Part shown: one piece after another, positions 15,149 to 59,562 of the stretch | How positions within the stretch are numbered: the first letter of the stretch is position 1 | How the letters are laid out: the number at the start of each line of letters is the position of its first letter | Source of the DNA: Callorhinus ursinus | Taxonomy: Eukaryota > Chordata > Mammalia > Carnivora > Otariidae | Assembly: GCF_003265705.1 (NCBI RefSeq) | Contig: NW_020312775.1 | Span: 3,986,822 to 4,050,821 of the forward strand | Direction: 5' to 3' | Length of the DNA: 64,000 nt | Translations under genes and position numbers: made by a program | Notes under the pieces: model-generated | Seen by the model: the letters and a program-made list of their open reading frames with translations, nothing else | Told to the model about the DNA's origin: nothing | Databases searched by the model: none

Positions 15149-16351
15149 TTCTTCCTCCTTTTATTTTTTTGAATTGAACTATAGCTGATGCACAGTGTTA
15201 CATTAGTTTCAGGTGTACAACGTAGTGATTATGCTATGCTCAGAAGTATAGCTGTCACAGTACAATGTTATTACAGTACCATTAACTATATTCCCTATTA
15301 TGTATCTTTCATCCCCATGACTTACAAATTTCATAACTGGAAGCCTGTACCTCCCATTCCCCGTCATTCATTTTGCCATCCCCCCACTCCCCTCCCCCGA
15401 CAACCATCAGTTTGTTCTGATTTATTGATCTGTTTCAGCTTTCTGCTTTGATTTTTAGATTCCACATATAAGTGAAATCATATGGTATTTGTCTTTCTCT
15501 CTCTGACTTATTTCACTTAGCATTATACCCTTATACCCTCTAGGTCCATCTATGTTGCCACAAATGCCAAGATCTCATTTTTTAATAGATAAGTAATATT
15601 CCATTGTGTGTGTGTGTGTGTGCATGTGTTCCATTTCCTTTATCCATTCATCTATCAATGGACACTTAGGTTGCTTCCATATATTGGCTATTGTAAATAT
15701 GCTGCAATAAACATAGGAGTACATACATCTTTTTGATTTAGTGTTTTTGTTTTCTTTGTGTACTCAGTACTGAGATTACTGGATCATATGGTATTTCCAT
15801 TTTAATTTTTTAATATTGTTTTCCACAGTGGCTGCACCAATTTACATTTCCACCAACAGTGCATGATGGTTCCCTTTTCTCTACATCCTCATCAACACTT
15901 GTTATTTCTTGTCTTTTTGATACTAGCCATTCCAACTGGTGTAAAATGATACCTCATTGTGGTTTTGATTTGCCTTTCCCTGGTGATGAATGATGTTGAG
16001 AATCTTTTCATGTGTCTGTTAGCCATCTGGATGTCTTCAGAAAAGCGTCCATTCAGGTTCTCTGCCCATTTCTTAATCAGATTATTTGTGGGTTTTTTGG
16101 TGTTGAGTTACATAAGTTCTTTATATATTTTAGATAACAATACCTTATTAGATATATAATTTGTAATTATCGTCTTCTATTCACTAGGTTGCCATTTTGT
16201 TTTGTTGATGGTTACTTTCACTGTGTAAAAGCTTTTTATTTTGATATAGTCCCAATAGCTTATTTTTGTTTTGTTTCCCTTGCCTGAGGAGACATATCTA
16301 TAAAAATGTTGCTAAGGCCTATGTCAAAGAGATTACTACCTGTGCTTTCTC
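15149..16351 (-). mobile_element. LINE-1, 5'-truncated (L1-D)
   Basis: A minus-strand L1 of 1.2 kb containing the 3' UTR (on the plus strand 'acattagtttcaggtgtaca' and 'catccccatgacttacaaat') and the C-terminal part of ORF2 (antisense of the region encoding W-E-D-x-x-R and the typical 'cacttgttatttcttgtct' block). The perfect target-site duplication caacaacttctt at 15137-15148 and 16352-16363 fixes both ends. ORF2 is broken by frameshifts. Plus-strand open frames at 15188-15451 and 15959-16159 are antisense shadows. Confidence 0.93.
15605..15630 (+). repeat. (GT)n inside L1-D
   Basis: A GT dinucleotide run expanded within the antisense ORF2 region, where other L1 copies read ccattgtatatatatac (for example 53543). 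Confidence 0.85.
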
Positions 16352-16505
16352 CAACAACTTCTTGACTATTTTCAGTGATGAGACACTTTTTTCCTCATAA
16401 AGTAACCCATTCTGTCATTGGACATATTTGATTACTTAAAAAATTTTTTCCCATATGTGAAGCCTAGAATGACATATGGTAAATTGAAATCTTTCCAAGA
16501 ATTGT

Positions 16506-16565: not shown

Positions 16566-16660
16566 TAATAGAAAGAGAACAGTATATATAAATATATTTA
16601 CATGTTTCTTAAGTCTTCTCTTTACCAGATTAAACATCACAAATATTTTCAACTATTTCT

Positions 16661-16842
16661 TTTTTTTTAAGATTTTATTTATTTGACAGAGAAAGAGAGC
16701 ATGAGCAATGGGAGCAGCAGGCAGAAGGAGAAGCAGACTCCCCACTGAGCAGGGAGCCTCCTGCGGGACTCAATCCAGTGACTCCAGGATCATGACCCAA
16801 GCTGAAGGCAGTCGCTTAACCAACTGAGCCCCCCAGGCACCC
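16661..16842 (-). mobile_element. Can-SINE, full length, minus strand
   Basis: The minus-strand head is gggtgcctggggggctcagt. A CT tract and poly(A) follow. The target-site duplication tattttcaactatttct is perfect (16644-16660 and 16843-16859). Confidence 0.96.
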
Positions 16843-17130
16843 TATTTTCAACTATTTCTTATATAAAGTGAATTTTAGATAAAATATAATATTTAATGTG
16901 TCCATAATTGTTTCTCAAGATGTTCACTTGTTTTTTTTAAAGGCTATATAGTCAAATAAGTTTGTGAGATGTTGGATTAAATATATTTCCTGCAGAATTT
17001 TTATGATTCTTTGAGAAGTTCATATGCATTGTGTATCTGCAGTTATAGAACTAGACTCCAATTCCCCTGATTCTCAGTCCAGACACTTCTTATACATCCA
17101 CTAAATCCATGTTCTTCCTAAACTAAATGA

Positions 17131-17183
17131 GAAAAAGAGGGAGGGAGGTGGGGAGGGGCAGAGAAAGAAAGAGAGAGAGAGAG
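17131..17183 (+). repeat. Purine-rich low-complexity tract
   Basis: G/A-only stretches (gagggagggaggtggggagg, then gaaagagagagagagagagg). No gene here. Confidence 0.8.
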
Positions 17184-17499
17184 GTTTTGAGATTAAATCA
17201 GAACCATTAGGTTAGTGCTCTCTGGGGTTGGTTTTGAAAAGGCAAGTTGTAGGTGAGGTGTGCAAGATTGACAAATGTTTGAGAAGGTGGATTCATAAGT
17301 GTTTCTGGGAGTGTGTCCAAGCAGAACAGACATACTGAAGCATTTAGATTCATTGACAATGGTATGGGAACTAGCCTGGACCTAAAAAGTTTCTTCAAGA
17401 TCTCTTTATGGATCCTCTAATTTCAAATCAAACCCACTACTACTTTGTGCAAAAAGTCATTAGTAGAGTGTGGGATATAATAGCCTCTGAACTTTACTT

Positions 17500-18381
17500 A
17501 AAATGAACTTGGAGAAAAATTGACACCACCATACTTGATATTAGCAATTTGGCCAAACACATCTCCAGTGTATAACTTGGAAATTTCAGAAACTAAAGTA
17601 TGAGAACTTGACTTTGTGGTCCAACAAAAAAGCTCAAATATTTGGAGCTTCAGTTTTACCTCCACCAGCTAAAATGGAGGCTCTCATGTCATTTGAATCT
17701 AATCTTATGTTGATGAAGCCCTGAAATTTAAATTTATGACTCTACAAGGTTGGCTACCTACCAATGGAGAGAAATACCCATCTCTCATATGCACAACAAA
17801 GGGAGCCACCACTGTTAAGAGAATATTACAAGTGATGGCCCATATCAGATTTCAAACATAACTTACTAGTGGAGCTGTTTATGAATGACCAAGAAAGTGG
17901 TCATCAAAAAGTTGAGGAGCTGTATATTTTGAACAACTTGTTTTCACCATACAGCAGTGGTGTTATATATATGGGCAGCTCAAACTAACTGCCAGATGGG
18001 GCTACCTTATGGCTTCTTGGCCCTCCTTCCACTTAGTTTCCAACTTAGCTTTAGCCATTGCTTGTAAATTTATGTGTTATGGATGTGTTAATTGGACAGA
18101 TGAAAACTTTCCATTCAAGGATGGTGTTCACAAAAAATTGGTTTGGTTGAACAAAAGAAAAATCATGATAAAAATGATTAAAACTGCAAAAGCAGTTCTA
18201 GGAGGAACTACTTGCCAAATTGAGGGAGGAGAGACTAGGAAGATAACAGCTACTCCCCTAGTTATTATCAGTAACAATGACATGATGGTCACCTACAGTG
18301 GCAAATAACTTTATTTATTAACAAGCTTTAAGAAACAAACTGATTAAACTTAAGTTTGATGCTTGCTTAGCTGGTAAATAG
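17500..18381 (+). pseudogene. Endogenous dependoparvovirus-like Rep/NS1 relic
   Basis: Broken remains of a parvoviral replication protein (nickase plus SF3 helicase) integrated in the host genome. The clearest part is the 99-codon frame 18009-18308, with the helicase block Y-G-C-V-N-W-T-D-E-N-F-P-F, then a K-x-A-K-A-V-L-G-G block and a later T-P-L-V-I-I-S-N-N block, spaced as in dependoparvovirus Rep. Just upstream, around 18013-18035, G-P-P-S-T is followed by a stop where the Walker A lysine should be. Frame 17863-17985 carries Y-I-L-x-N-x-x-x-x-P-Y, matching the segment before the helicase. Frame 17703-17858 (E-A-L-K-F, then A-T-T-V-K-R) resembles the HUH nickase domain, but the metal-binding histidines are not visible. 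Frame 18322-18378 may continue the helicase. At least three frameshifts, several stops and a likely internal deletion near 17860 make it non-functional. The 17500 start is uncertain. Family assignment is from motif recognition. Confidence 0.75.
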
Positions 18382-18460
18382 GGAGTCACTTGTGTTCCCT
18401 ATATAATAGCAGTCTTCCAAGGACAAACACCTCTGTGATGATGGGTAGAGTCCTGCCATT

Positions 18461-18955
18461 GATCACATAATAGAGAGGCATGGTTCAAACTTTTATCTCG
18501 ATGATATGGCTTTACAAACCAGTGAATCAGTGTAAGTTGACACACTGATGGGATCCGAGGACTTTCTCACCTTTCTGGAAGATTTGCCTTCTCTCAAATT
18601 ACACATTTCTGCTTCTCCTGGCTTGATGGGCATGATCTCATTTGAATGGCTGAAAGACCCCTGAGACTGGGAACAAGCAAAATGAGAAGTAGTAAATTTT
18701 CTTAATCCCTATCAGCAAGGTTTGTTTTCTTGGGAGATCATTAAATATATCTTTGCTTCTACTCCTGTAGTACAGGTTGCACTAAGTACTATTTGGAATC
18801 GTTTTAAACACTTTGAAGAAGATTCCTGCCACTGGCTTACTGTGTGGAGTGATCTGTATTCTGCACTTGAGAGTGTAGAGCATTTATCAATTTCTGATCT
18901 TCATCAAGAAATTACTGAAAGGTATGGTCTACCAAGACTCCATTATGAATGTTAG
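18461..18955 (+). pseudogene. Unidentified degenerate coding-like segment
   Basis: One reading frame runs from 18461 to 18955 with only three internal stops (18533-18535 TAA, then a TGA near 18659 and a TGA near 18680) before ending at TAG 18953-18955. About 160 codons with so few stops is unusual in this AT-rich DNA. The last 77 codons (18722-18952) are fully open, acidic and aromatic-rich (residues such as F-E-E-D and W-L-T-V-W-S-D). I do not recognise a family. It lies just downstream of the Rep-like relic, where a capsid gene would be expected, but I see no capsid or phospholipase motif. It could be part of the same viral insert, another retrocopy, or chance. Confidence 0.35.
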
Positions 18956-19560
18956 CACTCAGTGGTTGCATGCCACACTGCTTCTGGTGAGTCTCATGCT
19001 GGGCAAGCCATCCTGAGTGGACTGGAGTGGAAGTAAACCCTTGAGAGAAAAGGGAAATAAGGAACATGTCTTATCTTATTTGAAATGTGAAGACAAAAGC
19101 CACATTGTTACAGAAAAAGTCACATTTATCTTTGAACACTGAGAGACCAGAAACAGATCAACTACCTGTTGCTAAGCCAAAACCAGATCTTATCTCAAAT
19201 ATGGCTCCTGTTGAACATGAAAATTCTAATTCTGTGCTTGTTGGCATATGGCTTCAGATGCACCCAAAAGGACCATGTAAGTTGTGGGCAAGTTTGGCAG
19301 TGACAGAGGTCTTCTGCATATTACTTCATAACCTGATATTCAGGTAATTATCTCACTTTAAGGCTGATGGACTTATTTTTGGCGAAATGATAGCTGCCCA
19401 TATGATAAAATTTAAGGAGCATCATGAAAGGCTTCCCATTTTCTCTACCAATCTTAACAAATTTGAAATCTCATGTTTGTGATTCATTCTTTTAGAAATA
19501 AGTCACTGTCTTACACAGAATAGTGAAAGATATATACTCGAGTGTCAAGATTTAATAAAA
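18956..19560. other. Repeat-free tail of the viral-relic island
   Basis: No known repeat. An 86-codon frame at 19087-19347 follows the segment above in a different frame. It is lysine- and proline-rich at first, then hydrophobic, with no domain I know. The downstream frame remains fairly open to about 19480. Whether it belongs to the viral insert is undecided. Confidence 0.35.
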
Positions 19561-19815
19561 TTAACATTTTGTACTGTTTCACCAAGATGTTCTCAGTGTT
19601 GTCAAGCTATCCTCCTATGTTTTCTTCTAAAGACACTAAGGAACAATTTGGAGATAACTGACATCTTAATAATAGTGAGTCTTCCAATCCATCAACATGG
19701 TATATCTCTCCATGTATTTAAACTTCTTCAATTTCTCTCTGCAATGTTTTCTAGTTTTCAGTGTACAAATCTTACACATCTTTTGTTAAACTTATCCCTG
19801 AGTATATAATATTTT

Positions 19816-20022
19816 ATTTTTTATTTTTTTAAAGATTTTTAAAAATTATTTATTTGAGAGAGAGAGAATGAGAGAGAGAAAGACCACAAGAGGGGGGAGG
19901 GTCAGGGGGAGAAGCAGATTCCCTGCTAAGCAGGGACCCCCATGTGGGACTCAATCCCGGGACTCCAGGATCATGACCTGAGCCGAAGGCAGTCGCTTAA
20001 CCAACTGAGCCACCCAGGTGCC
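19816..20022 (-). mobile_element. Can-SINE, full length, minus strand
   Basis: The minus-strand head is gggcacctgggtggctcagt. The tail reads as attttttt on the plus strand. Target-site duplications ctgagtatataatatttt (19798-19815) and ctgagtatatcatatttt (20023-20040) differ by one base. Confidence 0.95.
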
Positions 20023-20264
20023 CTGAGTATATCATATTTTAAATATCATAAATTGAATTGTTTTTACTTTTATTTTCCAATTGTTTGTTGCTTGTATATA
20101 AAAATATAGTTGATTTCTGTATTAAAAAAAGTCACTCTCATCTTAATAAAGGCTTTTTTGAAATGTGAATATTTCATCTGTTAATTTTAATATATTAAGG
20201 CAACAGCATCTTAGCATGGCTTGATTCATCATTTATTTTATTAACAGGTAATTATTATATATCT

Positions 20265-33432: not shown

Positions 33433-34323
33433 ATGACAAGGCCAAAAAACTCACCTCAAAAAAAGAACAAGAGACAGTACCGACTGCCAGGGACTTAATC
33501 AATACAGACATTAGTAAGATGTCGAAACTAGAATTCAGAATGACAATTATAAAGGTACTAGCTGGATTGAGAAAAGCATAGAAGATACTAGAGAATCCCA
33601 TTCTGAGGAAATAAAAGAACTAAAACCTAACCAAGTCGAAATCAAAAAGACTATTAATGAGGTGCAATAAAAAATGGAGGCTCTCACTGCTAGGATAAGT
33701 GAGGCAGAAGAGAGAATTAGTGATATAAAAGACCAAATGATGGAGAATAAAGAAACTGAGAAAAAGAGAGATAAACAACTACTGGATCACGAGGGCAGAA
33801 TTCGAGAGATAAATGATACCATGAAGCAAAATGACATTAGAATAATTTGGATCCCAGAAGAAGAAGAAAGAGAGGGGCGAAGAAGGTATATTGGAGCAAA
33901 TTATAGCAGAGAACTTCCCTAATTTGGGGTAAGAAACAGGCATCAAAATCCAGGAGGCACAGAGAACCCCCCTCAAAATCAATAAAAATAGGTCAACACC
34001 TCGACATCTAATAGTAAAACTCAAAGTCACAGAGACAAAGAGAAATCCTGAAAGCAGCACAGGACACAAGGTCTGTAATGTACAATGGTAGAATCATTAG
34101 ATTGGCAGCAGACCTATCCACAGAGACCTGGCAGGCCAGAAAGGACTGGCATGATATATTCAGAGCACTAATTAAGAAAAATATGCAACCAAGAATACTA
34201 TATCCAGCTAGGCTGTCATTGAAAATAGAAGGAGAGATAAAAAGATTCCAGGACAAACAAAAACTAAAGGAATTTGTGAACACCAAACCAACCCTGCAAG
34301 AAATATTGAAAGGGGTCCTCTAT
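33433..34323 (+). pseudogene. L1-A ORF1 (RNA-binding protein), broken
   Basis: Remnant of the L1 ORF1 protein, a trimeric RNA chaperone that coats L1 RNA. The start ATG (33433) is preserved, but the frame stops within about 22 codons after a one-base shift. A coiled-coil stretch with heptad-like E/I/K residues is readable at 33674-33840. The start of the RRM-like domain follows, up to a frameshift near 33900. The C-terminal domain (T-W-Q-A-R-K-D-W-H-D-I-F, then L-Y-P-A-R-L-S) is open at 34078-34320. The expected stop (TAA in L1-B at 56838-56836) is TAT here at 34321-34323, so the C-terminal frame reads on into ORF2. Confidence 0.93.
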
Positions 34324-34404
34324 AAAAAGAAAGAGCCTAAAAGTAACATAGACCAGAAAGGAACAGACACAATATACAGTAACAGTCACCTTAGGGGTAA
34401 TACA

Positions 34405-37400
34405 ATGGCACTAAATTCATATCTTTCAATAGTTACCCTGAATGTAAATGGACTAAAAGCCCCATTTCAAAAGACACAGGGTATCAGATTGGATTAAAAA
34501 AACAAGACTCATCGATATGCTGTCTGCAAGAGACTCATTTTAGATGCAAAGACACCTCTAGATTGAAAGTGAGGGGGTGGAAAACAATTTACCATGCTAA
34601 TGGACATCAAAAGAAAGCTGGAGTGACAATCCTTATATCAGACAAATTAGATTTTAAACCAAAGACTATAATAAGAGATGAGGAAGGACACTACATTGTA
34701 CTTAAAGAGTCTATACAAGAAGATCTAACAATTGTAAATATCTATGCCCCTAACATGGGAATAGCCAATTATATAAGCCAGTTAATAACAAAACCAAAGA
34801 AATACATTGACAATAATACAATAATAGTGGGGGATTTTAACAACCCCCTCACTGAAAAAGACAGATCATCTAAGGAAAAGATCAACAAGGAAATAAAGAC
34901 TTTAGATGACACACTGGAACAGATGGACTTCACAGATATTTTCAGAACATTCCATCCCAAAGCAACAGAATGCACATTCTTCTCTAGTGCCCATGGAACA
35001 TTCTCCAGAATAGATCACCTCCTGGGTCACAAATCAGGTCTCAAACAGTACCAAAAGATTAGGATCATTCCCTGCATATTTTCGAATCACAATGCTTTGA
35101 ACCTAGAACTCAATCACAAGAGGAAAGTTGGAAAGAACTCAAGTACATGGAGGCTAAAGGGCATCCTACTAGAGAATGAATGGGTCAACCAGGATTTTAA
35201 AGAAGAATTTTAAAAAGTCATGGAAACAAATGAAAACACAACTGTTCAAAATCTTTGGGATGCAGCAAAGGCAGTCCTGAGAGGAAAGTATATAGCAATA
35301 CAAGCTTTTATCAAGAAACAAGAAAGGTCTCAAATACACAACCTAACCCTACACCTAAAGGAGCTTGAGGAAGAACAGCAAATAAAGCCTAAACCCAGCA
35401 GAAGAAGAGAAATAATAAAGATCAGAGCAGAAATCAATGAAATAGAAATCAAAAGAACAGTAGAACAGATCAGCAAAACTAGGAGCTGGTTCTTTGAAAG
35501 AATTAATAAGATTGATAAACCTCTGGCCAGACTTATCAAAAAGAAAAGAGAAATGACCCAAATAAATAAAATCATGAATGAAAGAGGAGAGATCACAACC
35601 AACACCAAAGAAATACAAACAATTATAAGAACATATTATGAGCAACTATATGCCAGCAAATTAGATAATCTGGAAGAAATGGATGTATTCCTAGAGACGT
35701 ATAAACTACCAAACTGAAGCAGAAAGAAATAGAAAACATGAACAGACTCATAACCAGTAAAGAAATAGAAATAGTAATCAAAAATCTCTCAACAAATAGA
35801 AGCCCAGGGTTAGATGGCTTCCCAGGGGAATTCTACCAAACATTTAAAGAAGAATTAATACCCATTCTTCTGAAACTGTTCCAAAAACTAGAAATGGAAG
35901 GAAAACTTCCAAACTCATTTTATGAGGCCACAATTACCTTGATCCCAAAACCAGACAAAGACCCCATCAAAAAGGAGAATTACAGACCAATATCCCTGAT
36001 GAACATGGATGCAAAAATTCCCCCCAAAATACTAGCCAATAGAATCCAACAGTACATTAAAAGGATTATTCACCACGACCAAGTGGGATGTATTCCTGGG
36101 CTGCAGGGTTGGTTCAACATCGCAAATCAATCAGTGTGATACAATACATTAGTAAAAGAAAGAACAAGAACCATATGATCCTCTAAATAGATGCAGAAAA
36201 AGCATTTGACAAAGTACATCCTTTCTTGATTAAAACTCTTCACAGTGTAAGGATAGCAGGTACATACCTCAATATCATAAAAGACATCTATGAAAAACCC
36301 ACAGTGAATATCATACTCAATGGGGGAAAACTGAGAGCTTTTCCCCTAGGGTCAGGAACATGACAGGGATGTCCACTATCACCGCTGCTCCTCAACATAG
36401 TATTAGAAGTCCTAGCCTCAGCAATCAGACAACAAAAAGAAATAAAAGGCATCCGAATCAGCAAAGAAGAAGTGAAACTCTCACTTTTGGCAGATGATAT
36501 GCTACTTTTTGTGGAAAACCCAAAACTCCACCCCAAAACTGCTAGAACTCATACAGCAATTCAGTGAAGTGGCAGTATATAAAATCAATGCACAGAAATC
36601 AGTTGCATTTCTATACACCAACAACAGGCAGAAGAAAGAAAAATTAAGGGGTCAATCCCATTTACAATTGCACCCAAAGCCATAAGATACCTAGGAATAA
36701 ATCTAACCAAAGATGCAAAGGATCTGTACTCAGAAAACTATAAAATACTCATGAAAGACATTGAGGAAGACACAAAGAAATGGAAAAACGTTCCATACTC
36801 ATGGATTGGAAGAACAAATATTGTGAAGATGTCAATGCTACCTAGAGCAATCTACACATTCAATGCAATCCCTATCAAAATACCATCCACTTTTTTCAAA
36901 GAAATGGAACAAATAATCCTAAAATTTGTATGGAACCAGAAAAGACCCCGAATAGCCAAAGGAATGTTGAAAAAGAAAAGCAAAGCTGGCGGCATCACAA
37001 TTCTGGACTTCCAGCTCTATTACAAACTGTCATCATCAAGACAGTATGGTACTGGCACAAAAACAGACACATAGATCAATGGAACAGAATGGAGAGCCCA
37101 GAAATGGACCCTCAATTCTATGGTCAACTAATCTTTGACAAAGCGGGAAAGAATGTCCAATGGAAAAAAGACAGTCTCTTCAACAATTGGTGTTGGAAAA
37201 ATTGGACAGACACATGCAGAAGAAAGAAACTGGACCATTTCCTTACACCACACACAAAAAGAGGCTCAAAATGGATGAAAGACCTAATTGTGAGATAGGA
37301 ACCCATCAAAATCCTTGAGGAGAACACAGGCAGCAACCTCTTTGACCTCAGCCGCACCAACTTGTTCCTAGAAATATCGCCAAAGGCAAGGGAAGGAAGG

Positions 37401-38250
37401 ACAAAAATGAACTATTGGGACTTCATCAAGATAAAAACTTTTGCACAGCAAAGGAAACAGTCAACAAAACCAACAGACAACCGACAGAATGGGAGAAGGT
37501 ATTTGCAGATGACATATCAGATAAAGGGCTAGTATCCAAAATCTATAAAGAACTTATCAAACTCAACACCCAAAGAGTAAATAATCCAATCAAGAAATGG
37601 GCAGAAGACACAAACAGACATTTTTGCAAAGAAGACATCCAAATGGCCAACAGACACATGAAAAAGTGTTCAAACTCACTTGGCATCAGAGAAATCCAAA
37701 TGAAAACCTCAATGAGGTACCACCTCACACCAGTCAGAATGGCTAAAATTAACAAGTCAGGAAACAACAGATTTTGGAAAGGATGCTGAGAGAGGGGAAC
37801 CCTCCTACACTGTTGGTGGGAATGCAAGCTGGTGCAACCATTCTGGAAAACAGTATGAAGGTTCCTCAAAATTTGAAAATAGAACTACTCTACGACCCAG
37901 CAGTTGCACTACTGGGTATTTACCCCAAAGATACAAATGAAGTGATCCAAAGGGGCACATGCACCCCAATGTTTATAGCAGCAACGTCCACAATAGCCAA
38001 ACTGTGGAAAGAGCCTAGATGTCCATCTACAGAAGAATGGATAAAGAAGATATATATATCACAGCTTCTATATTATATATATATAATTCTTCTATATTAT
38101 ATATACACACACACACAATGGAATATTATCCAGCCATCAGAAAAATGAAATCTTGCCATTTGCAACAATGTGGATGGAACTAGAGGGCATTATGCTAAGC
38201 AAAATAAGTTTTCAGAGAAAGACAGGTATCTTATGATCTCACTGATATGA
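34405..38250 (+). pseudogene. L1-A ORF2 (endonuclease / reverse transcriptase), broken
   Basis: Remnant of the L1 ORF2 protein, which nicks target DNA and reverse-transcribes L1 RNA. Order: APE-type endonuclease (start M-A-L-N-S-Y-L-S-I-V at 34405; Q-E-T near 34533; V-G-D-F-N near 34827; the S-D-H motif reads S-N-H at 35082-35090), linker (35220-35717), reverse transcriptase (35738-36139 with [10 protein letters not shown]; the F-A-D-D box reads L-A-D-D at 36487-36498) and the cysteine-rich C-terminus (near 37780-37830, interrupted by TGA). At least six frameshifts or stops split it. It ends at TGA 38248-38250. Length is close to the family norm of about 3.8 kb. A TA/CA repeat has expanded inside it at 38048-38118. 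Confidence 0.95.
38048..38118 (+). repeat. TA/CA microsatellite inside L1-A ORF2
   Basis: atatatatat and cacacacaca tracts with a repeated 'cttctatattatatat' lie where L1-B reads a short tatatatac. This is a local expansion after insertion. Confidence 0.85.
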
Positions 38251-45359: not shown

Positions 45360-45506
45360 CTGATTGTGTGAATGACCTTTTCAATTTATTGTTGTATGCC
45401 ATTTGCTAATATTTTGTTGAGGATTTTGCATTTCTGTTCCTCAGAGATATTGGCCTATAGTTTTCTCTTTCTGTGATGTCTTTGGTTTTGGTATCAAGGT
45501 AATGCT

Positions 45507-45690
45507 GGTCTTGTAGAATGCATTTGGAAGCTTTCCTCCCTTTTCTATTTTTTGGAATAGTTTGAGGAGAATAAGTATTAACTCTTCCTTAAATGTCTGG
45601 TCTTGTAGAATATATCTGGAAGCTTTCCTTACTCTTCTATTTTTTGGAATAGTTTCAGGAAAATAGGTATTAACTCTTCCTTAAATATCT
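45507..45690 (+). repeat. 92-bp tandem duplication inside L1-C
   Basis: Two head-to-tail copies (45507-45598 and 45599-45690) begin ggtcttgtagaat and end ccttaaatrtct, with scattered differences. L1-A and L1-B have one copy at the matching place (for L1-B, 55693-55785), so it arose within this copy. Confidence 0.88.
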
Positions 45691-45764
45691 GACAGAATTC
45701 CCCCATGAACCTATCTGGTTCAATATTTTTATTTTTATTTTTATTTTTAAAATATCTATGTTTT

Positions 45765-53411: not shown

Positions 53412-56400
53412 TCATATCAGTGAGGTCATATGATATATGTATTTATCTGATTGACTTATTTCGTTCAGCATAACACCCTCCAGTTCCATCCACGTCATTG
53501 CAAATGGCAAGATCTCATCCCTTTTGATGGCTGCATAATATTCCATTGTATATATATACCACTTCTCCTTTATCCATTCATCTGTCGATGGACATCTTGG
53601 CTCTTTCCACAGTTGGGCTATTGTGGACATTGCTGCTATAAACATTGGGGTGCATGTACCCCTTCGGATCCCTACATTTGTATCTTTAGGGTAAATACCC
53701 AGTAGTGCAGTTGCTAGATTGTATGATAGCTTTATTTTCAACTGTTTGAGGAACTTCCATACTGTTTTCCAGAGTGGTTGCACCAACTTGCATTCCCACC
53801 AACAGTGTAAGAGGGTTCCCCTTTCTCTGCATCCTCGCCAACATCTGTCATTTCCTGACTTGTTAATTTTAGTCATTCTGACCGGTGTGAGGTGGTATCT
53901 CATTGAGGTTTTGTTTGGATTTCCCTGATGCCGAGGGATGTTGAGCACTTTTTCATGTGTCTGTTGGCCATTTGGATGTCTTCTTTGGAAAAATGTCTGT
54001 TCATGTCTTCTGCCCATTTCTTGATTGGATTATTTGTTCTTTGGGAGTTGAGTTTGATAAGTTCTTTATAGATTTTGGATACTAGCCCTTTATCTGATAT
54101 GTCATTTGCAAATATCTTCTCCCATTCTGTCGTTTGTCTTTTGGTTTTGTTGACTATTTCTTTTGCTGTGCAAAAGCTTTTTATCTTGATGAAGTCCCAG
54201 TAGTTCATTTTTGCCCTTGCTTCCCTTGCCTTTGGTGATGTTTCTAAGAAGAAGTTGCTACGGCTGAGGTCGAAGAGGTTGCTGCCTGTGTTCTCCTTTA
54301 GGATATTGATGGACTCCTGTCTCACATTTGGGTCATTCAACTATTTTGAGTCTATTTTGGTGTGTGGTGTAAGGAAATGGTCCAGATTCATTCTTCTGCA
54401 TGTGGCTGTTCAATTTTCCCAACACCATTTGTTGAAGAGACTGTCTTTTTGCCATTGGACATTCTTTCCCACTTTGTCAAAGACTAGTTGACCATAGAAT
54501 TGAGGGTCCATTTCTGGGCTCTCCATTCTGTTCCATTGATATATGTGTCTGTTTTTGTGCCAGTACCATACTGTCTTAATGATGACATCTTTGTAATAGA
54601 GCTGGAAGTCCGGAATTGAGATGCCACCAGCTTTGCTTTCTTTTTCAACATTCCTTTGGATATTAGGGGTCTTTTCTGGTTCCATACAAATTTTAGGATT
54701 ATTTGTTCCAATTCTTTGAAAAAAGTGGATGGTATTTTGAAGGGGATTGCATTGAATGTGTAGATTGCTCTAGGTAGCATTGACATCTTCACAATATTTA
54801 TTCTTCCAATCCATGACTATGGAATGTTTTTCCATTTCTTTGTGTCTTCCTCAAATTCTTTCATGAGTATTTTATAGTTTTCTGAGTACAGATCCTTTGC
54901 CTCTTTGGTCAGATTTATTCCTAGGTATCTTATGGTTTTGGGCGCAATTGTAAATGGAATCGACTCCTTAATTTCTCTTTCTTCTGTCTTGTTGTTGGTG
55001 TATAGGAATGCCACTGATTTCTGTGCATTGATTTTATATCTTGCCACTTTACTGAATTCCTGTATGAGTTCTAGCAGTTTTGGGGTGGAGTTTTTTGGGT
55101 TTTCCACATAAAGTATCATATCATCTGCAAACAGTGAGAGTTTGACTTCTTCTTTGCCGATTTGGATGCCTTTTATTTCTTTTTGTTGTCTGATTGCTGT
55201 GGCTAGGACTTCTAATATTATGTTGAATAGCAGTGGTGAGAGTGGACATCCCTGCCGCGTTCCTGACCTCAGGGGGAAAGCTCTCAGTTTTTCCCCAATG
55301 AGAATGGTATTCACTGTAGGCTTTTCATAGATGGCTTTTATGATACTGAGGTATGTACCCTCTAACCCTATACTCTGAAGAGTTTTGATCAAAAAAGGAT
55401 GCTGTAGTTTGTCAAATGCTCTTTCTGCATCTATTGAGAGGATCATATGAACCTTGTTCTTTCTTTTGTTAATGTATTGTATCACGTTGATTGATTTGCG
55501 GATGTTGAACCAAACATGCAGCCCAGGGATAAATCCCACTTGGTCGTGGTGAATAATCCTTTTAATGTACTGTTGGATCCTATTGGCTAGTATTTTGGTG
55601 AGAATTTTTGCCTCCATGTTCATCAAGGATATTGGTCTGTAATTCTCCTTTTTGATGGGGTCTTTGTCTGGTTTTGGGATCAAGGTAATGGTGGTCTCAT
55701 AAAACGAGTTTGGAAGTTTTCCTTCCATTTCTATTTTTTGGAACAGTTTCAGGAGAATAGGTATTAATTCTTCTTTAAATGTTTGGTAGAATTCCCCTGG
55801 GAAGCCATCTGGCCCTGGGCTTTTGTTTTTGGGAAATTTTTGATGACTGCTTGTATTGCTATATACTTTCCTCTCCGACTGCCTTTGCTGCATCCCAAAG
55901 ATTTTGAACAGTTGTGTTTTCATTTTCATTTATTTCCATGATTTTTTTAAATTTTTCTTTAATTGCCTTGTTGACCCATTCATTCTTTAGTAGGATGTTC
56001 TTTAGCCTCCATGTATTTGAGTTCTTTCCAACTTGCCTCTTGTGATTGAGTTCTAGTTTCAAAGCACTGTGGTCTGAAAATACGCAGGGACTGATCCCAG
56101 TCTTTTGGTACCGGTTGAGACCTGATTTGTGACCTAGGATGTGATCTATTCTGGAGAATGTTCCATGCGCACTAGAGAAGAATGTGTATTCCGTTGCTTT
56201 GGGATGGAATGTTCTGAATATGTCTGTGAAGTCCATGTGGTCCAGTGTGTTATTTAATGTCTTTATTTCCTTGTTGATCTTTTGCTTAGATGATCTGTCC
56301 ATTTCATTGAGGAGGGTGTTAAAGTCCCCCACTATTATTGTATTGTTGTCAATGTGTTTCTTTGCTTTTGTTATTAATTTCCTTATATAATTGGCTGCCC

Positions 56401-56754
56401 CCATTTTGGGGGCATAGATAGTTACAGTTGTTAGATCTTCTTGTTGGATAGACCCTTTAAGTAGGATATAGTGTCCTTCCTCATCTCTTATTACAGTCTT
56501 TAGTTTAAAATCTAATTTGTCTGATATAGGGAATGTCACCCTACCTTCTTTTGATGTCCATTAGCATGGTAAATGGTTTTCTACCCCTTCACTTTCAAGG
56601 TGAGGGTGTCTTTGGGTCTAAAATGAGTCTCTTCCAGACAGCATATCGATGAGTCTTGTTTTTTTAATCCAATCTTATAGCCTGTGTCTTTTGATTGGGG
56701 CATTTAGCCATTTACATTCAGGGTAACTATTGAAAGATATGAATTTAGTGGCAT
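53412..56754 (-). pseudogene. L1-B ORF2 (endonuclease / reverse transcriptase), broken
   Basis: Long readable pieces of ORF2. 56539-55859 is most of the APE endonuclease, with V-G-D-F-N and an intact S-D-H near 56069-56077. 55929-54817 (370 codons) is the reverse transcriptase with [16 protein letters not shown], the [11 protein letters not shown] block and an intact F-A-D-D box at 55120-55131. 54792-53900 holds the following domain in shifted frames. 54017-53412 (201 codons) holds the cysteine-rich C-terminus (C-x-x-x-x-x-x-x-x-H-C-W-W-E-C). The start region has a one-base loss soon after the ATG at 56754, which gives a stop within about 17 codons. Total length is 3.34 kb against about 3.85 kb in L1-A because of the deletion near 55850. 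Confidence 0.95.
55835..55860 (-). other. Deletion junction in L1-B ORF2
   Basis: Here the sequence jumps from the block that in L1-A ends near 35314 (atagcaatacaagc) to the block near 35775 (atcaaaaatctctc). About 460 bp of the linker between endonuclease and reverse transcriptase is gone. Short shared sequence (a..atcaa) at the joint suggests microhomology. Confidence 0.85.
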
Positions 56755-56835
56755 TGTATTGCCTGTAACGTGACTGTTACTGTATATTGTCTGTGTTCCT
56801 TTCTGGTCTACGTTGCTTTTACGCTCTCTCTTTGC

Positions 56836-57731
56836 TTAGAGGACCCCTTTCAATATTTCTTGTAGGGTTGGTTTCATGTTTGCAAATTCCTTTAGTTTTT
56901 GTTTGTCCTGGAAGCTTTTTATTTCTCCTTCTATTTTCAATGACAGCCTAGCTGGATATAGTATTCTTGGCTGCATATTTTTCTCGTTTAGTGCTCTGAA
57001 GATATCATGCCAGTCCTTTCTGGCCTGCCAGGTCTCTCTGGTAGGTCTCTCGCCAATCTAATGTTTCTACCATTATAGGTTACATCTCTCTTCTCCCGAG
57101 TTGGTTTCACGATTTTCTCTTTGTCTCTGAGACTCGTAAGTTTTACTATTAGATGTTGGGGTGTTGACCTATTTTTATAGATTTTGAGAGGGGTTCTCTG
57201 TGCCTCCTGGATTTTGATGCCTGTTTCCTTCCCCACATTAGGGAAGTTCTCTGCTATAATTTGCCCCAATACAACTTCTGCCTCTCTCTCTCTTTCTTCT
57301 TCTTCTGGGATCCCAATTATTCTAAGGTTGTTTCGTCTTATGGTATTGCTTATCTCTCAAATTCTGCCCTCGTGATCCAGTAGTTGTTTATCTCTCTTTT
57401 TCTCAGCTTCTTTATTTTCCATCATTTGGTCTTCTATATCACTGATTCTCTCTTCTGCCTCATTTATCCTAGCAGTTAGCACCCCCATTTTTGATTGCAC
57501 CTCATTAATAGCCTTTTTGATTTCGACTTGGTTAGATATTAGTTCTTTTATTTCTCCAGAAAGGGTTTCTCTAATAACTTCCATGCTTTTTTCAAGCCCA
57601 CCTAGTATCTTTAAAATCATGATTCTGAACTCTTGGTCTGACATTGTACTAATGTCTGTACTGAGTAGGTCCCTGGCAGTCAGTACTACCTGTTCTTCTT
57701 TTTGTTGAGGTGATTTTTTCCATCTTGTCAT
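56836..57731 (-). pseudogene. L1-B ORF1 (RNA-binding protein), broken
   Basis: The start ATG lies at 57731, and the frame is open for about 124 codons (to 57357): basic N-terminus, then a coiled coil with heptad-spaced I/L residues. It ends where a CGA arginine codon has become TGA (minus strand, about 57359), a CpG-type change; the frame would otherwise continue into the RRM-like domain. 57269-56988 is the next readable piece (E-N-F-P-N, then a frameshift near 57055 that destroys the T-W-Q-A-R-K-D-W motif). The native stop TAA is at 56838-56836. Confidence 0.93.
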
Positions 57732-59562
57732 TTTGTCCAGAGGAGAATAGATGAATGAGAGAACAAAATGCAAAATTTTGTTACCCTAACAGGGTAACAA
57801 TGTCCCCAGAAAATATACTCTAAACAAATCAGAAAAGACCTGAAGCCAGGGGAAAAGGAAGGGAAAGAAAGAAAAAAAGAAATAGAAAAAAAAAGAAAAA
57901 GAAAAAGATAAAAACAATCAAAAACATAACATAACAAAAAGAAAAACCAGAATATGATCAAATATGATCAGGCTGGTGCACAGATCAATGCCACACACTA
58001 GATTTTGGGTGTATTTTGGTCTGTTAGAAGAAAGTGCCTCCCAAAATTTTAAAGAAAGAAAAACTTATATATGTACAAAAATAAGAGTTGATACAATGAA
58101 GGGATGGAATATGACTATAAAGATGAAAATTATAAAAAATTTTATAAAAGGCGTTGATAAGAAGTTGTTTGAAAAAGGAAAGAAGAGGATTTAAAAAAAA
58201 AAGAGAGAAAAAAAAAGGGGAGAGAATGTGATCAGGCAGGAGACCAGAACAAAGCCATGCACTAGAGATTTAGGGTATATTTTGATCTGTTAGAAGAAAC
58301 TGTATCTCAAAATTTTAAGGAGAGAACAACTTATATATGTATGCCAAAAATAAGGGAAACTACTATGAAGAGATAGAATATGACTCTAAAAATGAAAAAT
58401 AAAAAAATTTTTTTTTAAAAAGGGATTGATAAGATGTTGGTTGAAAAAGGGAAAAAGGAAAATTTTAAAAAAAGTTAAAAAAATTAACTTTGAAAGACTA
58501 AAGAATCATGGTAAAAAAAACATGGATTCTATGTGCAATATTTCCCTAGCTCTGGAGTTCTGCCATTCTCATTGATGGGTAAACTTGGTCTTGGCTGGCT
58601 GTTCTTGCTGATCTTCTGGGGGAGGGGCCTGTTGCGGTGTTTCCCAAATGACTGCTGGAGGCGGAATTTCCCCGCCCTTGCCGGGTCCGGGCTAAGTAAT
58701 CTGCTCGGGTTTGCTCTCGGGAGCTTTTGTTCCAGGCTAGCTTTTGGTACAGCTTTGGAGGACAAGAGTGAAAATCACAGCCTCCCAATCTCTGCCCCCG
58801 AGGAGCTGATAACTTGGGGCCCCACTCCTCAGTGCACCCCCAGAGAAAAGCAGTCAGTCACTCCCGTCTTCCCAGTCTCTGGCTGCACTCCATGCTCACC
58901 CGGCCTCTGACTGAACATTTCTATCTCTGGCACCCGACTCCGTGTGGAGTCTCCAAACCCAGCAGATCCCTGCGGTGCACTCCCGCGCTGCTCCTCCCAA
59001 GGGAGGAAGGGGAGTCTCCCTGGATCTGCGGCTTGTTGGGTCCCTGCTGGAGGAGCAGTGGCCCAACTGTGCCAGGGATCATGGTTTATGGCAACCCCAA
59101 GCTGAGAGCCCATGCCTCGGCTCCGCTTCTGCAGCCGGCTTCCCCACTCTGATACCCGGGAGCTCTGCCATACTCAGGCACCCCTGGTCGTTCTGTGACC
59201 CCGAGGGTCCTGAGACCACACTGTCCCGTGAGGGTTCCACCCCCCACTTAGCCACTGGAGCGATGTCCCTCAGTGGAGCCAACTTCTAAAAGTTCTGATT
59301 TTGTGCTCTGGGGCTCTATCACTTGCCAGAAGCGGCCGACAGAGGCCCCTCCCCCGCCATCTATTGCCTCAAATTCACTTCTCCACACGTCCTACCTTCC
59401 AGAAAGTGGTCTCTTTTCTGTTCAGAGAGTTGTTGCTCTTCTTTTCTTCGATCACCTGTTAAGTTCATAGGTTTTCAGAATGGTTTGATCCCTATCCAGC
59501 TGAATTCCTGAGACAAGAGAAAATTCAGGTCTCCTACTCCTCTGCCATTTTGCTCCACCCTG
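57732..59562 (-). promoter_or_regulatory. L1-B 5' UTR / internal promoter
   Basis: About 1.8 kb. 59562-58530 is GC- and CpG-richer than anything else in the window and matches the L1-A 5' UTR at 31687-32760. 58500-57740 is A-rich (minus: T-rich) with two tandem units. In L1 biology this region carries the Pol II promoter. Activity here is inferred. Several antisense (plus-strand) open frames lie over it: 58533-58910, 58814-59152 and 58942-59289. Confidence 0.85.
58006..58345 (-). repeat. Tandem units in L1-B 5' UTR
   Basis: Two units share 'tattttggtctgttagaaga' (58011) and 'tattttgatctgttagaaga' (58276), each followed by a diverged 'caaaattttaa' block and 'aacttatatatgta'. They are the counterpart of 32824-33265 in L1-A. 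Confidence 0.85.

Follow-up and report, generated by a model that had tools for sequence, protein, structure and literature searches.

A broken parvoviral Rep helicase fragment, probably of dependoparvovirus-like origin, in the genome of Callorhinus ursinus

The window, the entire stretch of 64,000 nucleotides of Callorhinus ursinus DNA which was analysed, holds a short and broken fragment of a parvoviral Rep/NS1 gene on its plus strand. Very probably this fragment represents an endogenous parvoviral element, comprising part of the Rep/NS1 gene of an ancient dependoparvovirus-like virus which was integrated by chance, inherited and left to decay. Both the homology to Rep/NS1 proteins and the breakage are evident from the sequence comparisons, and the same comparisons suggest that, among parvoviruses, the ancestor was closest to the dependoparvoviruses. 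The relic is situated in a contig of 22,974,018 bases, with SINE- and L1-like repeats on either side, and the host DNA which surrounds it, taken together with its stops and frame breaks, identifies it as an endogenous viral element. Chance integration of the ancient virus into the germ line, presumably through non-homologous joining, would have been followed by inheritance of the Rep/NS1 copy and subsequently by its decay, with only the central part of the SF3 helicase domain still recognisable. The relic would most likely be without function and drifting.

The recognisable part is an open stretch of 130 codons (17916-18305, plus strand), which encodes a parvoviral SF3 helicase core and is terminated by a stop codon at 18306. 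The run of SF3 helicase landmarks which the first-pass annotation had described from the sequence is indeed present, with YGCVNWTDENFPF (18078-18116), KTAKAVLGG (18180-18206) and TPLVIISNN (18252-18278) occurring in order within this single open frame. A degenerate DNA pattern for GCVNWT[D/N]ENFP is found once in the window and in none of 100 shuffles. Parvo_NS1 (PF01057) is the sole Pfam match at E ≤ 1 for 17916-18305 (E 4.6e-22), with a score of 78.7 bits lying above the curated cut-off of 20 bits for this family. Comparison of the same stretch against the PDB gave eleven chains at E ≤ 10, and all eleven are named Rep or NS1. Nine of these, ranked first with 66.8-68.5 bits, are designated Rep40, Rep68 or, in one case, "DNA replication protein" (E 4.6e-18 to 1.6e-17 for the Rep40/Rep68 chains), and we take these nine chains (1u0j, 1s9h and others) to be Rep40/Rep68 of adeno-associated virus 2 (AAV2). 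The remaining two chains are non-structural protein 1 (50.9-53.4 bits). In this translated comparison, which had been proposed as a check in the first-pass annotation, the parvoviral match surpasses any host helicase in both Pfam and the PDB. The significantly aligned part comprises residues 39-129 (18030-18302; approximately 91 residues), and 36 of the 91 query residues are identical to Rep40/Rep68 in the printed PDB alignment. The relic shares the SF3 helicase core with AAV2 Rep40/Rep68, but lacks the intact Walker A and complete frame of these proteins, and a nickase domain could not be recognised in it.

The Walker A region is split by a change of frame. GPPST (18019-18033), which we take to be the start of the Walker A motif, is followed by a stop (18019-18036, plus strand) in a frame other than that of the helicase core, while the rest of the helicase is encoded in another; the broken Walker A had been correctly noted from the sequence. 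Similarly, the previously described Y-I-L-N-N...P-Y block could be located as YILNNLFSPY at 17923-17952, in the same frame as GPPST, but the 50-residue piece which carries it has no significant match. Because the Walker A is divided between two frames and the domain is interrupted by a stop codon, the relic would yield neither a working ATPase nor a working helicase. Absence of an intact Walker A is to be expected of a relic, and therefore excludes function but not descent. The frame breaks and stops also agree with the earlier proposal that the relic is long dead.

Whereas the relic was originally delimited at 17500-18381, the significant match reaches only over 18030-18302, which is the supported extent, possibly to be widened to 17836-18380. 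The open piece with the Y-I-L-N-N...P-Y block (17836-17985, plus strand), which has no significant match when taken alone, possibly represents Rep just before the Walker A on the basis of its position and frame. Matches of this piece to PF16355 (E 0.048) and TIGR01481 (E 0.077) lie under the curated cut-offs and were taken as chance. On the other side of the core, a 19-residue open piece (18322-18378, plus strand), which is too short for searches, may continue Rep, judging by its position. Pieces of an HUH nickase domain, which the first-pass annotation had placed upstream in another frame, could not be recovered. Six open pieces in this region (17375-17503, 17502-17600, 17545-17721, 17612-17710, 17703-17858 and 17732-17815) are without significant Pfam match, and three of the six, searched against the PDB along with 17836-17985, likewise gave no significant match (best E 0.6). 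Chains named "capsid protein VP1" were matched by 17703-17858 at only E 0.6 in the PDB, which was taken as chance. A nickase domain upstream may have decayed beyond recognition, or may have been lost by truncation, between which the searches do not discriminate. The stop-codon load of 17300-17835 equals the background, which is a weak test as that of 17836-18380 is also not significantly low (0.20 of background windows are as low). Downstream of the core, no capsid remains were found, with the tested pieces within 18378-19479 lacking a significant match in Pfam and the PDB. Successive longish open pieces across 18449-19480 were considered as capsid or another gene and were rejected, having no significant match and no significant reduction in stop load (stop loads as low occur in a fraction of 0.12 of the background for 18381-19480 and 0.06 for 18381-19658). 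A match of 19136-19300 to PF24858 (E 0.0041) falls under the curated cut-off and was taken as chance, as were the other weak PDB matches of flanking pieces (E 0.6 or more).

The window occupies C1:3986822-4050821 of the own 2.67-Gb genome. A PF01057 profile search of this genome, in which all nine candidates were scored, gave matches at two places, namely the window relic (77.2 bits) and C194:1669059-1669310 (L007; 69.6 bits), while none of the fourteen control genomes contains a match. This second relic incorporates four stops inside the matched stretch and scores 61.4 bits over 47 residues against AAV Rep, compared to 35.9 bits against other NS1. It resembles the window relic in being a broken Rep helicase core, with 43 % protein identity over 60 residues, and at the DNA level approximately 120 bases are alike at 75 %, with only short low-complexity stretches alike elsewhere. 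Of the two relics, the second more closely resembles AAV Rep, and it probably represents a separate insertion, of a different virus. For 16846-19506, a DNA search of the genome, which overlooks distant copies and failed to pick up the second relic, revealed no other close copy. With 16846-19658 as query, this search produced 43 match rows, with common words skipped, and the non-self matches involve only a purine-rich stretch (approximately 17128-17190) or positions 19507 and beyond.

Two matches were obtained in a protein collection, P0001 (87 residues) and P0002 (77 residues), which share 85 % identity over 81 residues and 71 % identity over 66 residues, respectively, with the window. P0001 follows the frame of the window on either side of the Walker A break, with both proteins changing frame shortly afterwards, and P0002 terminates at the same stop as the window relic. 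These proteins and the window relic would appear to descend from one copy which was already broken. As P0001 and P0002 differ from both places in the own genome, they probably derive from other genomes, and the same broken copy is probably held by other assemblies. Before the break, in the part which is not in the native frame, P0001 differs from the window in two of 37 residues, one being the first residue, while in the native part directly after the break three of 32 residues differ. This similar conservation before and after the break points to plain kinship and not to selection. When full-length relatives were sought, 148 candidates were scored and none reached E ≤ 0.001, in a search for which Rep40/68 was estimated to be detectable; proteins of this kind may be absent from the collection searched or fall outside the 148 candidates. 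Among the viral_contigs, three stretches were matched, none of which is a relative, and further searches there found none; the pattern matches in L001-L005 are without significant likeness.

The combination of motifs had been described as typical of dependoparvovirus Rep. This stands in so far as only Rep/NS1 proteins are matched, with Rep40/Rep68 first, and the genus Dependoparvovirus is probable for the window relic rather than shown. Rep40/68 lead the other NS1 proteins by 15 bits (68.5 vs 53.4), a moderate lead among the few genera represented in the PDB, while for the second relic, which aligns over half the length, the lead amounts to 25 bits (61.4 vs 35.9). These figures could also accommodate, as a tentative reading, an origin outside the dependoparvoviruses proper, in another parvovirus lineage or an extinct one, basal to the Erythro-Dependo-Tetra-Copi (EDTC) group, as the lead of the window relic is only 15 bits and that of the second relic is larger over a shorter match. 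Campbell et al. 2022 (PMC9707805) also give, in the text of their study, a Laurasiatherian calibration of 84-73 My only as 'EDTC', and describe two short Laurasiatherian Rep elements as unclassifiable, which is in keeping with a basal lineage. Nevertheless, the best match of the window relic is still Rep40/68, and few genera are sampled by solved structures. More speculatively, the window relic may derive from an extinct lineage placed at the base of the dependoparvoviruses, or of the entire EDTC group, which integrated before the laurasiatherian orders diverged and now lies in the same genome as a later and independent AAV-like insertion.

It is very improbable that selection has preserved the 130-residue stretch as a gene of the host, encoding for instance a dominant-negative anti-parvoviral protein. 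All 130 codons are still open and P0001 is in the same frame over 81 residues. Purifying selection was reported for a Scrotifera parvovirus Rep orthogroup in the text of Nino Barreat and Katzourakis 2024 (PMC11521997), where a degu Rep-like gene which inhibits a parvovirus is also mentioned. However, the non-native part before the break is as conserved as the native part after it, P0001 and P0002 soon change frame, and the window contains twenty-nine open stretches of at least 110 residues, eighteen of which lie within 34018-38148 or 53412-57785, placed as L1 copies. A non-viral origin, whether from a host or transposon helicase or by chance, is scarcely credible considering that the eleven PDB matches at E ≤ 10 all carry Rep or NS1 names (one as "DNA replication protein"), that Pfam returns Parvo_NS1 only at E ≤ 1, and that the shuffles never yielded the motif pattern.

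As a decayed dependoparvovirus-like insertion, which is the preferred reading, the window relic is of a kind already known, namely an ordinary endogenous parvoviral element, AAV-like, and the locus itself, unmatched to a published one, has probably been catalogued. Dependovirus-like elements of dog and panda were inferred to be orthologous and at least 42 My old by Belyi et al. 2010, as related in a review (PMC3205384) whose entry for dependovirus rep is +/- in cat, dog and panda. The window relic is likewise dependovirus-like and located in a carnivore, and may or may not be the same locus as the dog and panda elements of that review. Across 17 species, Katzourakis and Gifford 2010 (PMC2987831) count 58 elements of dependovirus-like kind in their text and 57 in their table, and the screen of 752 genomes described by Campbell et al. 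2022 (PMC9707805) yielded 80 dependoparvovirus loci, with the two Laurasiatheria Rep elements being too old and short to classify. Two Scrotifera parvovirus Rep elements of approximately 81 My are described in the text of Nino Barreat and Katzourakis 2024 (PMC11521997). The Laurasiatheria and Scrotifera elements in the texts of these two studies (PMC9707805, PMC11521997) are two short ancient fragments, and the own genome has two PF01057 places; this agreement in number, with the loci absent from the text, is suggestive of the window relic and the second relic being the published pair. Endogenous parvoviral relics supply minimum ages for virus lineages, and the window relic affords a second look at a short Rep fragment which is hard to classify, in a genome with two separate Rep insertions. 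The picture given by the studies cited here is unchanged by it.

In agreement with the first-pass annotation, which had observed that neither a Can-SINE nor an L1 has inserted in the relic, a search of 16862-19507 with the window's own copies as queries revealed no SINE and no L1. The names SINE and L1 are applied here by recognition, and we take the SINE-like repeats of the window to resemble Can-SINEs. To the left, and outside the relic, a SINE-like repeat (16665-16845, plus strand) is accompanied by an 18-base target duplication at 16644-16661 and 16843-16860, and an old L1-like fragment (15459-16352, minus strand) shares 71 % identity with the long L1-like copy which the window carries at 53-59 kb. 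To the right lies a dispersed and apparently retroposed unit (19513-20129, plus strand), which ends in an A run and has AAGTCACT at 19500-19507 and 20129-20136. The portions 19513-19816 and 20022-20129 of this unit occur at two other places in the genome (L009 and L010) with 94-97 % identity, and a SINE-like repeat (19820-20025) is located inside it. The dispersed unit is unrelated to Rep and confines any viral DNA to the left of approximately 19507. An old L1-like fragment forms part of the unit, into which the SINE-like repeat was inserted later. A single old L1 interrupted by the viral insert was considered for the collinear minus-strand fragments at 15459-16352 and 19659-19805 and was rejected, as the right fragment belongs to the dispersed unit. 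Rfam and tRNA scans across the window were empty. Elsewhere in the window, long L1-like copies, again by recognition, with sizeable open stretches are present at 34018-38148 (plus strand) and 53412-57785 (minus strand), and a tandem repeat at 45501-45691 consists of 2.1 copies of a 92-base unit with 89 % matches.
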